From: Methanosarcina horonobensis HB-1 = JCM 15518
GTDB lineage: Archaea; Halobacteriota; Methanosarcinia; Methanosarcinales; Methanosarcinaceae
NCBI RefSeq assembly: GCF_000970285.1
Contig: NZ_CP009516.1
Span: 2,893,036-2,957,035, forward strand
DNA: 64,000 nt
Reading direction: 5' to 3'
The notes beneath the pieces were generated by a model. That model was given only the letters and a program-made list of their open reading frames with translations. It searched no databases and was not told the DNA's origin. The first letter of the stretch is position 1. Each line of letters opens with the position of its first letter. Below are positions 3,147 to 7,360 of the stretch, piece by piece. The position numbers and the translations under genes were made by a program.

Positions 3147-4403
3147 TTATATACCACACTTCTTAAAATTGCCACTGCATACAACGTAGGAGTTCCCATC
3201 ACTTCCTCTGACTGACCGGTAGTATGTGGTCTTGTAGTACAAATTAGCGTGTACAGGATTTGTATATACATACTCCTCCCACCCGGTGCCGTTCTCCAGT
3301 GCTCCGGTAACGATTTCATCACGGAAAGGTTTACCGGTGACATCTGTCTTCCCTTTTAAATTAGTACCGACTAACAGGATATTGTCTGCGTGGGCGACCA
3401 TTGTCACATTCGCATCATACACGAAGGCATAGAGGCCCGGATTCTCAGGATCACGATACGGTGCTTCACCTGCGTTGATGCGATGGAACGTGTCGGTAGC
3501 GTTCTTCTCAATTGCCGTGGCAGTGATGTTCACAAGTGCGATCACTGCTTCATCGGTGAATGTCTGCTGGGCACAGCTGACACCGAGATCCTGATAGACA
3601 ATCCGTTCGTAGTCGCTGACTCCCTGCTCATCTTTCTGATCTCGTAATGTATCCAGAGCCTGCTGGAAGGATTGAACAACGGAGTCGGGGACGTCTTTAC
3701 TAAAAGCATAGTAAGTATCCTGGGCTTGTAATTCATACACGACCATGTAGCTGTTATAGTTCCCGGTCGCCTGTTCAGCAAAGTAATTGCCTGAGGCCTC
3801 GGGACATGCCCAGAGATCGATTTCACCGCTATCCAGTGCGGCAATGATTGCGTATACATCGCTTTCGGTCACTATCTGGCTCTGGTTCACACCAATATCG
3901 AGCAGATACCGAATCGCAACATCGTCAGTGATCACCCCTATACGGTAACCCTTCAGGTCTTCAGGACCTTTTATACTGATTTCTCGGTCCGGTCTGGCAA
4001 ACAGAACCTTTCGGTTAGTATAGACAGGTCCGGCCCATTTGAATAAATCCTCACGTTCGGGAGTTCTTGCCATACTGAAGAGAACTGTACCATTTCCGGT
4101 GAGAGCCGCCTGATATCCTTCGGTCCAGGGGACGAGGTGTATCTCCTCTTGAGATACTTTATTCCCCATTTTTTCAGTTATTGCCTCTAGCAGGTCAACA
4201 GAGAGCCCCTTCACAGTTCCATTTTCCTGATAATTATAGGGAGGAAGTTGTTCAGTGTAATATGTCAAACTGGTCAATTCAAGGGTACTATTCGTATCTG
4301 CAGATTCAACTTCGCGTTCAGAGAGGCATCCGGCAGTCATAATTAGAGCACCAGTGAGTGCTATACTAAGGAAAAGATACGTATATCGCAAGAAGGATGA
4401 CAT
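3147..4403 (-). CDS. Lipoprotein with solute-binding (SBP family 3) and Cache-like domains
   Basis: A 418-residue extracellular lipoprotein. A hydrophobic signal ends in a lipobox (M-T-A-G-C, Cys near residue 26). Residues ~45-275 are a family 3 periplasmic binding domain (Y-Y-T-E-Q-L-P-P-Y-N-Y, then G-L-S-V-D-L-L-E-A-I, then R-I-G-V-I-T-D-D), as in amino-acid binding proteins. Residues ~285-415 resemble a single Cache domain (Y-A-F-V-Y-D, M-V-A-H-A-D, G-x-N-L-x-G-K). This is a sensor-like fusion with no membrane-spanning or kinase part. No permease or ATPase gene adjoins it, so it may act as a ligand sensor or scavenger protein. The surrounding sequence gives no operon partner. Confidence 0.8.
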   Translation of the reverse strand: MSSFLRYTYLFLSIALTGALIMTAGCLSEREVESADTNSTLELTSLTYYTEQLPPYNYQENGTVKGLSVDLLEAITEKMGNKVSQEEIHLVPWTEGYQAALTGNGTVLFSMARTPEREDLFKWAGPVYTNRKVLFARPDREISIKGPEDLKGYRIGVITDDVAIRYLLDIGVNQSQIVTESDVYAIIAALDSGEIDLWACPEASGNYFAEQATGNYNSYMVVYELQAQDTYYAFSKDVPDSVVQSFQQALDTLRDQKDEQGVSDYERIVYQDLGVSCAQQTFTDEAVIALVNITATAIEKNATDTFHRINAGEAPYRDPENPGLYAFVYDANVTMVAHADNILLVGTNLKGKTDVTGKPFRDEIVTGALENGTGWEEYVYTNPVHANLYYKTTYYRSVRGSDGNSYVVCSGNFKKCGI

Positions 4404-4736
4404 AAATATTATAAACTGTCTGTATATAAGTAAATGTTCATTCGGCCAACTTTAAAATTAAACGCCCTCTTTATATTCATATGATCGTTCTCTCGTTATT
4501 TATACTTGAATCTGGCCTCTACTTAATAAAAAAATCATGATTGAGAGGGGAGGTTTTTGTTCCTCCCGATTGCGAGGGGTGGAATATGCATTTGGGACAA
4601 ATTTGCGAAAATTCTAATTTTCACAATAGATGCCAGGAAACTTTGCAGAATTCTGAAAAAGTATTATAGTGTTTGTTGTAGCTGCATACTGCTGTGACTT
4701 GGTGGCCAGGTTGAAAATTGAGATGAGTATATTTCT
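4404..4736. other. Intergenic region with a short hairpin
   Basis: No gene is supported. A GGGAGG/CCTCCC hairpin with an 8-nt loop lies at 4548-4567. It is not followed by a T-tract in either direction and does not end a gene, so it may belong to a short non-coding transcript or be incidental. Confidence 0.4.
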
Positions 4737-4946
4737 ATGATTGAAAATATTTTGGCTATGATGATAGCAGAAAAACAAAAAAATGGGAAGTGTTTAACTT
4801 TATATTTGGAGTTAAAAGATGGAAAACAAATTTCTAGTCATAATGTTGAGGATTACCAACTTACTTCCAGCCCATCAGGAATTCCTCAATACTTCAAACA
4901 AAAAATACCTATTTCCAGGTCAAAGGAATTGTTTAAAAATAATTAG
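4737..4946 (+). CDS. Small hypothetical protein (69 aa)
   Basis: An ATG-initiated frame of 69 residues that reads like a soluble protein (Y-L-E-L-K-D-G-K-Q-I-S-S, then G-I-P-Q-Y-F-K-Q-K-I-P-I-S-R). No clear ribosome-binding site precedes it and I recognise no family. It ends 2 nt before the structured element at 4948-5031, so that element would form its 3' flank. It could be a genuine small gene or a chance frame. Confidence 0.35.
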   Translation: MIENILAMMIAEKQKNGKCLTLYLELKDGKQISSHNVEDYQLTSSPSGIPQYFKQKIPISRSKELFKNN

Positions 4947-4947
4947 A

Positions 4948-5031
4948 AAAGGGTCGGAATTTAAGAAAAAAGGATTTCCTTTCATGTATTGGCAGTTGGG
5001 GAAATACGGGAGGCTTCGTATCCGACCCTTT
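4948..5031. ncRNA. Structured RNA candidate, copy 1
   Basis: A perfect 11-bp closing stem pairs 4948-4958 (AAAGGGTCGGA) with 5021-5031 (TCCGACCCTTT). Inside are a hairpin at 4969-4982 (AAAGG/CCTTT, 4-nt loop) and short GTATT/AATAC and ATACG/CGTAT pairings that may be alternatives. A second element at 5220-5293 has the same plan and shares the sequence around the first junction, but its stem sequences are changed in a way that keeps pairing. The strand is not certain; I read it on + because the shared 5' junction is purine-rich. The class is not recognised. Confidence 0.45.
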
Positions 5032-5219
5032 ACGTCTTATTTATATCAAGCTATATGCACTTGATATTTACTATAATACTTCCATAACATATATACTTTG
5101 TGATTAAATTTAGACAGTACTGAAAATAAGTGTTACTTAGCTATTAAGGATGAGGTTAGTCAAGAAAAAAAATTCATTTTTCAATCTTTAAGGGTATGCT
5201 TAAAAAAGTTATAGAAAAG

Positions 5220-5293
5220 GATTGGAATTAAGAGGAAAGGGTTTTTCCTCTCAATTTCAGAGATTGTGGAATGACAGGGGATTAAATCCAATC
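5220..5293. ncRNA. Structured RNA candidate, copy 2
   Basis: A 7-bp closing stem pairs 5220-5226 (GATTGGA) with 5287-5293 (TCCAATC). An 8-bp hairpin follows at 5231-5251 (AGAGGAAA/TTTCCTCT, 5-nt loop). The joining sequence GGAATTAAGA corresponds to GGAATTTAAGA in copy 1, at the same place between the closing stem and the first hairpin. The stems differ in sequence from copy 1 but remain paired, which is covariation within the window. It may be an sRNA or cis-regulatory element; no open frame starts directly after it. Confidence 0.45.
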
Positions 5294-5429
5294 AACTCTT
5301 ATATTCATCCCATTTTTCGAGCTATGAATAGTTATTATAAACTATTTAACTTAAAAATATATAATTTATAAGGACGTTTTGAACCAATAGTACATATTCT
5401 CAAAAATGTTCTTCTGGCTATTATAAGAT

Positions 5430-5952: not shown

Positions 5953-6876
5953 TTATCTCTCCTGTTTTTTCGTGTAATAGATCCAAAGAAGGATGCAAAT
6001 AATTCCCAAGGCAATGAGGCTTATAACAAGTATTGGTTTTTTCTCAGCTGGTTTTTCTAACTGAGTTTGAGTTTTGTTAATGTTTTTATCGGGTACATTT
6101 ATTGTATCGGGTACATTTATTGTATCTTTCTCCGGTTCTTTTTCGAACTCTCCTTCAGGATTGTTTTCTTCTTGAATGTTCCCTCCGGTTGTGTCATCTA
6201 GAGTTTTGATGGGCTTCAGTGTAACCAGACGAGGATTATCTGAGTGGCTTGAAGAAGAATGCCATTTCTTGAGAGTTATGATTTTTGAAGTGTCCCCTAT
6301 TGTTATTTTGTAATCCCCTTCAGGCATCTTACTGGTATCATATTCATATCTAAAGTTTCCTTCCGAATCAGCAGTGATTTTTTGGCAAGCGGTAATCCTG
6401 AGCTTTACATTAGATTCTTCTTCCAAAGCGTCTCCATACATTTCAACTCTATAAGTCAAAGGAGGTACTCTTGATTGAGAAACAGTAGCGACTCCGTCAA
6501 TAGCATTTTTGCTAAGAGTAAACCCTACAATTTTTTTTACCTTGATGTTCAGGTTTTTCACTTGCTCAGCCCTTACAGTGAAGAGGTTATTATTTCCTTT
6601 AGGAATTTTAACTTCCTTGACAGTATACTCATATTCTCCTTTAGATGCGATCACGTTTTTCTCATATGAAACTTCTGCTGTAAGTTCTTGATTAGGGTTG
6701 GCATTTCCGGTTATCACTAAATTATCACCAAGGTAGGGGTTTGAAGGGACAACATTCCATTCCCCAGCCGTAGCTGTAAGAGAGAAAAACAACAAAGTCA
6801 GTATAGATGCTAAGATAATAGCTGCAGAATTTAGCAGTTTTTTTGATGCGGAAAGAGATTTCATCTTTTCTTGCAT
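5953..6876 (-). CDS. Secreted membrane-anchored surface protein
   Basis: About 307 residues. I place the start at the ATG at 6876 because GGAG lies 9 nt before it; the GTG further upstream (6891) would overlap that site. A signal peptide (A-A-I-I-L-A-S-I-L-T-L-L-F-F-S-L-T-A-T-A-G) precedes a beta-rich extracellular region. A Glu/Asn/Pro-rich linker follows, with a tandem D-T-I-N-V-P repeat. A C-terminal hydrophobic helix (I-S-L-I-A-L-G-I-I-C-I-L-L-W-I-Y-Y) is followed by K-K-Q-E-R. The topology is that of an archaeal cell-surface protein held by its C-terminus. There is no PGF motif and no neighbour to suggest a role. Confidence 0.65.
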   Translation of the reverse strand: MQEKMKSLSASKKLLNSAAIILASILTLLFFSLTATAGEWNVVPSNPYLGDNLVITGNANPNQELTAEVSYEKNVIASKGEYEYTVKEVKIPKGNNNLFTVRAEQVKNLNIKVKKIVGFTLSKNAIDGVATVSQSRVPPLTYRVEMYGDALEEESNVKLRITACQKITADSEGNFRYEYDTSKMPEGDYKITIGDTSKIITLKKWHSSSSHSDNPRLVTLKPIKTLDDTTGGNIQEENNPEGEFEKEPEKDTINVPDTINVPDKNINKTQTQLEKPAEKKPILVISLIALGIICILLWIYYTKKQER

Positions 6877-7360
6877 GAAAAACAACTCCACTTTATAGAT
6901 TTTTTTAAAAATTTGTTAAAAATCTCCTAATTATTTAATTCAGATAAAACTGAATAACTGACCACCTTTTCGAAAATTTAATGTAACTTCCAAATTCGAG
7001 TTTTGAGACGTAATTCTGAATTTTGCAATCAGTTCATTAACTGATTTTGGGTAGGCTAAATCGTAACTGTTTTCGCTAGTTAATTTTTATCTTTTTTAAA
7101 TTTTGGAGTTTAAAAGTTACGTGAAAATTTTCTGAATTACCTTTTTACCTCACTTTTCACAGATGTCTATTCAATTTTCACAAGTCTTGATGCCATTGTT
7201 TTGTCTGATAACTCCATAGTTATCCAAACTTGTGGTTTTGAAATTTCTCTCACGTAAACTGTGTGAATAATCTAATAGTGTACAATATATTTTAACTTTT
7301 CTACAAAGTGCCAAATATTTCTATAAATATCTTTTATATAATTTTTTTAAAATTAGTTTT

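Follow-up and report, generated by a model that had tools for sequence, protein, structure and literature searches.

Tandem E1/E2 elements of Methanosarcina horonobensis as probable divergent members of a multi-copy superfamily of stand-alone structured RNAs

The closest described systems are small RNAs (sRNAs) of Methanosarcina itself. The sRNA162/sRNA171 locus of M. mazei, described with an RNA of 191 nt and a 39-nt linker, lies between the gene of the ArsR-family (ArsR-type) regulator MM2441 and MM2442, and is present as a single copy in M. acetivorans (PMC3510493). sRNA154 of M. mazei is one nitrogen-regulated, trans-acting RNA with two stem-loops, which is conserved in Methanosarcina (PMC5867862). 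In bacteria, multi-copy CsrB has been described (PMC6262261).

Here, we analyzed a window of 64,000 nucleotides from M. horonobensis HB-1 = JCM 15518, whose genome consists of one contig of 5.02 Mb. This window carries two tandem structured RNA elements on the plus strand, E1 (4948-5031) and E2 (5216-5293), which we compare below with a second, abundant element termed R2. Like sRNA162/sRNA171, these are intergenic elements of Methanosarcina that contain several stem-loops, come as paralogous pairs and show compensatory changes. In contrast to the published description of sRNA162/sRNA171, R2 has other neighbours and is present in seven copies in genome G014, which we take to be M. acetivorans (C2A). 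Identity with sRNA162/sRNA171, which also differs in length, was rejected, as locus and copy number disagree and no E-type locus examined has the MM2441/MM2442 neighbourhood; the sRNA162 locus itself, sought through FilR1-type regulators, was not identified in M. mazei. Conservation in Methanosarcina, the two stem-loops and a putative trans action are shared with sRNA154, from whose description E1/E2 and R2 are set apart by being multi-copy. Several copies per genome and repeated purine motifs in hairpin loops are features in common with CsrB/RsmY-type sibling sRNAs; however, the number of loops is one or two rather than large, and the likeness is a functional analogy only, with a hypothetical protein binding.

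Searching Rfam 15 yielded no match above the gathering threshold in the window, nothing credible between 4700 and 5500 at E-values up to 5, and none at the R2 loci, and PMC searches retrieved no paper describing the E/R2 family. R2 is a previously uncatalogued family, absent from Rfam. A 2009 catalogue of M. mazei reportedly holds roughly 200 intergenic sRNAs, and R2 transcripts may already stand unnamed in this list, without having been recognized as a family. Archaeal sRNA families defined by covariation are few, and Methanosarcina serves as a genetic model of methane production. R2, found in nearly all species of the genus in up to 11 copies, offers targets for deletion and pull-down in M. 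mazei and M. acetivorans.

Architecture and covariation of E1 and E2

E1 and E2 sit in a 1.5 kb gap between two minus-strand ORFs, a solute-binding/Cache protein gene upstream (3147-4403) and an ORF without Pfam match downstream (5953-6891), the latter being 660 bp away. An earlier sequence-only reading had stated that no clear gene directly follows the elements, which agrees with the opposite strand of this next ORF. Both elements were found where that reading had placed them, each with a closing stem of 7-11 bp. In E1, this stem comprises 11 bp (AAAGGGTCGGA, 4948-4958, paired with TCCGACCCTTT, 5021-5031), and in E2 7 bp (GATTGGA, 5220-5226, paired with TCCAATC, 5287-5293). Running on from the 5' arm, the two elements have the junction GGAATT(T)AAGA in common (GGAATTTAAGA, 4956-4966, and GGAATTAAGA, 5224-5233).

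The proposed design, a common junction with closing stems that differ in sequence and yet pair, was confirmed using a strict pattern consisting of a 7-nt arm ending in GGA, then ATTT?AAGA and, 40-90 nt further on, the reverse complement of the arm. This pattern occurs at two sites in the window, namely E1 and E2, versus none in 300 first-order Markov windows with the dinucleotide make-up of the real window; a looser form is encountered 0.2 times per random window. The first hairpins had likewise been described as staying paired, which holds for the strong hairpin 1 of E2 (AGAGGAAA, 5231-5238, and TTTCCTCT, 5244-5251), but not for the weak hairpin 1 of E1, in which two of five homologous pairs are broken. 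Single-sequence folding gave a significant z of -2.9 for E1, a non-significant -0.75 for E2 alone, and a moderate -2.1 for E2 with its 3' flank.

In an alignment of ten E-type copies, the closing stem is paired in 80% of cells, compared to 23-48% when slid, and its covariation score is reached by none of 500 shuffles. As the structure had guided this alignment, the test was repeated on five copies aligned with MAFFT in a structure-blind manner; here, the score of closing stem and hairpin jointly is reached by 6 of 500 shuffles. Covariation of hairpin 1 is weaker (31/500). An alternative fold suggested by RNAalifold, with the 3' arm paired to an internal copy of GRTTGG, showed no covariation (266/500) and was discarded. 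Compensatory changes in the closing stem are seen in relatives from four other Methanosarcina genomes.

Relatives in other genomes and the R2 family

Using blastn, E1 together with its 5' flank was matched in G014 (L002, E 2.5e-25), with both 8-nt arms fully conserved, and E2 was matched in the same genome (L014, E 7e-13). An E2-like copy is present in G025, presumably M. mazei (L003, E 1e-8). In G014, the E1 match stops and the E2 match starts at one position of the window (~5203), the two lying 260 kb apart, and this shared breakpoint suggests that the tandem was probably split by rearrangement. An IS21 gene is found near the E1 copy of this genome.

A covariance model from five E-type copies (R1) added copies in G025, G030 and G003 as well as two more in G014. 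A further model from ten E-type copies (R3), which contains no R2 sequence, added an eleventh copy, in G014 (E 1.4e-5); this copy was flagged independently by CTATGCACACTT, a motif not contained in the model, which is located just downstream of it, as in three other E-type copies. E1 and E2, both of which are inside this model, score 65.4 bits (E 7e-15) and 80.5 bits, respectively. The R1/R3 matches L056, L059, L038, L040 and L033 resemble coding sequence and were excluded. In total, the distribution of probable E-type copies is patchy, with 5 genomes out of the 31 searched within Methanosarcina. Much of the closing stem is missing from several of the ten copies; L057 and L178 have an apparent 3' hairpin in its place, as judged by eye only. 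Homologues with compensatory changes exist, and their absence, which the sequence-only reading had named as a refutation, was not observed.

Low-scoring matches of R1 converged on an abundant and highly conserved element, through which the R2 family was reached. Its layout is a hairpin 1 (GATTRAGAG..AGGGTTT..CTCTYAATC), a linker GGGTTGGATC and a covarying 3' hairpin, or, in full, GATTRAGAG-TAATAGGGTTT-CCTCTYAATC, then TTTGGGTTGGATCGC, then GGTAGGGA..CTGAG-AATAGGGA-CTCAG..CCCTACC. The model has 24 pairs, 9 of them with compensatory changes (0/500 shuffles); hairpin 1 and linker are nearly invariant in sequence, and the 3' hairpin changes by compensation. Within Methanosarcina, R2 is present in 30 of 31 genomes; it also occurs in two sister genera of the family Methanosarcinaceae, and is absent from the remaining genera of the class among the 238 genomes of 39 genera sampled. 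Every named contig with an exact R2 core is Methanosarcina; a virus origin was rejected, with no exact core match in viral contigs.

R2 copies hold the same loci across species (ornithine decarboxylase-like, MauG, FilR1/FmdE), where they form conserved islands: two copies compared between G000 and G014 are 95% and 92% identical within intergenic DNA of 41-59% identity. The neighbour genes vary by copy and lie in both orientations, mostly 0.2-1.6 kb off, and include PAS/MEDS histidine kinases, a FilR1-type regulator beside FmdE, and ornithine decarboxylase-like and MauG proteins. PAS/MEDS histidine kinase genes repeatedly adjoin R2 copies (L052, L099, L104, L113 and L114), in genomes in which kinase genes are common. 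Tandem R2 units are found at L062, L032 and L051. A variant R2-like group (L049 and L050, G026:C3) has the hairpin GATTGAGAGGATAAGGGTTTCCTCTCAATC followed by GGGGTGGATCAC, with several copies within 16 kb. Separately, L149 and L150 (G025, 2843000-2868000) contain about six repeats, at 85-92% identity, of a cassette in which a FilR1-type regulator is combined with a divergent surface/exported protein gene.

The R2 model was built without E-type sequences. Among its matches in the window, E2 has the highest score (22.5 bits, E 0.0055; runner-up 12.8 bits), and L055, L065 and L066 rank first on their loci. In the opposite direction, R2 copies make up 18 of the 20 next-best R3 matches at E <= 0.05 in the 31 genomes. 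This two-way match is not fully independent, since R2 was first reached through R1, and E1 alone does not score significantly with R2 (9.9 bits), so that it joins only through E2. E2 carries the R2 hallmark, in which hairpin 1 has a AAAGGGTTT-like loop and a GRTTGGA-like linker comes next. What E1 and E2 do not have is R2's separate 3' hairpin (GGTAGGG..CCCTACC); the closing stem takes its place, and this assigns them to a divergent subfamily and not to R2 proper. Taken together, these matches suggest that E1 and E2 probably belong, as divergent members, to one superfamily of multi-copy, stand-alone RNAs with R2. That E1 and E2 are new-class structured RNAs which may act in trans, as had been proposed from the letters, is in line with their stand-alone position, the covarying stems, the lack of an Rfam match and relatives at unrelated loci, whereas the larger genus-wide family had been missed.

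Proposed function and alternative readings

With moderate confidence, we favour a model in which E1 and E2 are tandem genes for trans-acting sRNAs, as divergent members of the Methanosarcina multi-copy superfamily. They would represent two genes, each with its own flank, whose products are small structured non-coding RNAs with a length of about 80-130 nt. The putative functional core shared in the superfamily is hairpin 1 with its purine-rich AAAGGG loop, together with the adjoining G/U-rich segment. Further 3', the E-type closing stem or the R2-type 3' hairpin varies in sequence yet pairs, and is therefore probably a stabilizing clamp. The two RNAs would most likely act in trans as sibling regulatory sRNAs that base-pair with mRNAs via the exposed loop or linker, and their transcription may terminate at T runs such as 5313-5317.

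The same AATAGGG stands in both R2 loops, which makes titration the main rival to this model: the AGGG loop of hairpin 1, joined in R2 by the AATAGGGA loop, would bind an RNA-binding protein, and the copies would tune its free level in the manner of CsrB/RsmY-type RNAs. Such a role would suit the R2 hairpin 1 stem, which is near-invariant in both sequence and pairing, unlike the 3' hairpin with its compensatory variation, the multiple copies and tandem units, and the several copies adjoining PAS/MEDS histidine kinase genes. However, E1 and E2 retain one such loop only, kinase genes are common in Methanosarcina genomes anyway, and no CsrA-like protein is known from archaea, and we consider protein titration unlikely. 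By analogy, genus-wide sibling RNAs that titrate an archaeal RNA-binding protein by means of their repeated AGGG-loop hairpins, partly under the control of neighbouring PAS/MEDS sensor kinases, would amount to an archaeal counterpart of Gac/Rsm, a proposal that we regard as improbable and put forward as speculation.

The multi-copy, clustered occurrence and the transposase genes near some copies (L064, L066) could also be explained by mobile or repeat (MITE-like) DNA, whose inverted repeats merely fold without any RNA function. This is very unlikely given that R2 copies keep their loci between species as conserved islands and that the stems covary; moreover, an unsystematic inspection showed neither terminal inverted repeats nor target duplications. 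We give equally little credence to cis-acting leader, attenuator or 3'-end elements of adjoining genes, to which the intergenic position and the T runs after the elements would correspond, but neither the distance and strand of the next downstream ORF (660 bp, other strand) nor the differing R2 neighbours, in both orientations and mostly 0.2-1.6 kb away, fit a role of this kind. Finally, small ORFs are contained in many of the sRNAs of M. mazei (PMC11456600), and an 81-codon ORF (4819-5064) reads through E1, which might thus be part of a small protein gene. This ORF has no Pfam match, no ORF of at least 60 codons lies over E2, and stops break the frame in the G014 relative, for which reason the small-protein assignment was rejected as highly improbable.

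Flanking sequences and downstream features

The conserved 5' flank of E1 (4900-4939, plus strand) contains a dyad-like AAAAAATACCTATTTCC and a TATA-like TTTAAAAA at 4932-4939. It is 80-85% identical to the G014 copy, with the sequence beyond at alignment-background identity, and a resembling flank also precedes E2, L064 and L053. The conserved flank of E2 (5160-5207, plus strand), with a TATA-like TTAAAAAA at 5200-5207, still adjoins the E1 orthologue in G014, though E2 has moved off. At the usual spacing of 26-27 nt, these TATA-like boxes would direct starts near 4962 (E1) and 5230 (E2); since both positions fall within the element and past the 5' arm of its closing stem, such boxes do not fit simply. 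The real TATA box may be located more upstream, the RNA may be processed from a longer precursor, or the closing stem may not form part of the RNA. Considered as genes of the R2 superfamily, E1 and E2 thus combine stand-alone placement and a conserved 5' flank with an awkward TATA spacing.

Downstream of E1, the hairpin TATCAAG-CTATATGCA-CTTGATA (5044-5066, plus strand) shows 84% identity in G014 and one compensatory change in L054 (TCAAG/CTTGA to TTAAG/CTTAA). The four E-type copies followed by CTATGCACACTT are L064, L054, L057 and L178. A T5 run at 5313-5317 (plus strand) is a possible archaeal terminator of E2, and T5 runs 7-25 nt past the closing stem are also found in L065, L066, L054 and L053.

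At 4527-4623 (plus strand), 350 bp upstream of E1, the superfamily-like sequence GATTGAGAGGGGAGG-TTTTTGTT-CCTCCCGATTGCGAGGGGTGGAA is possibly a decayed copy; as a third tandem copy it was rejected, being weak with R2 (12.3 bits) and unsupported by R3 (9.1 bits). The E-type 5' flank GAAATATCTGTTTTCCAGG..GTTTAAAAAAG..ATAGAAAAGGATTGAATT also precedes unrelated sequence in L004, L006 and L017 (around 1480-1540), perhaps marking a decayed E locus or a different RNA that shares this promoter. A conserved AT-rich stretch, e.g. CTCCAAATATTTATAATTTGTGGAG, is located ~60-90 nt past the closing stem (5080-5110 in the window, and in L064, L065 and L054) and could be a promoter or terminator.
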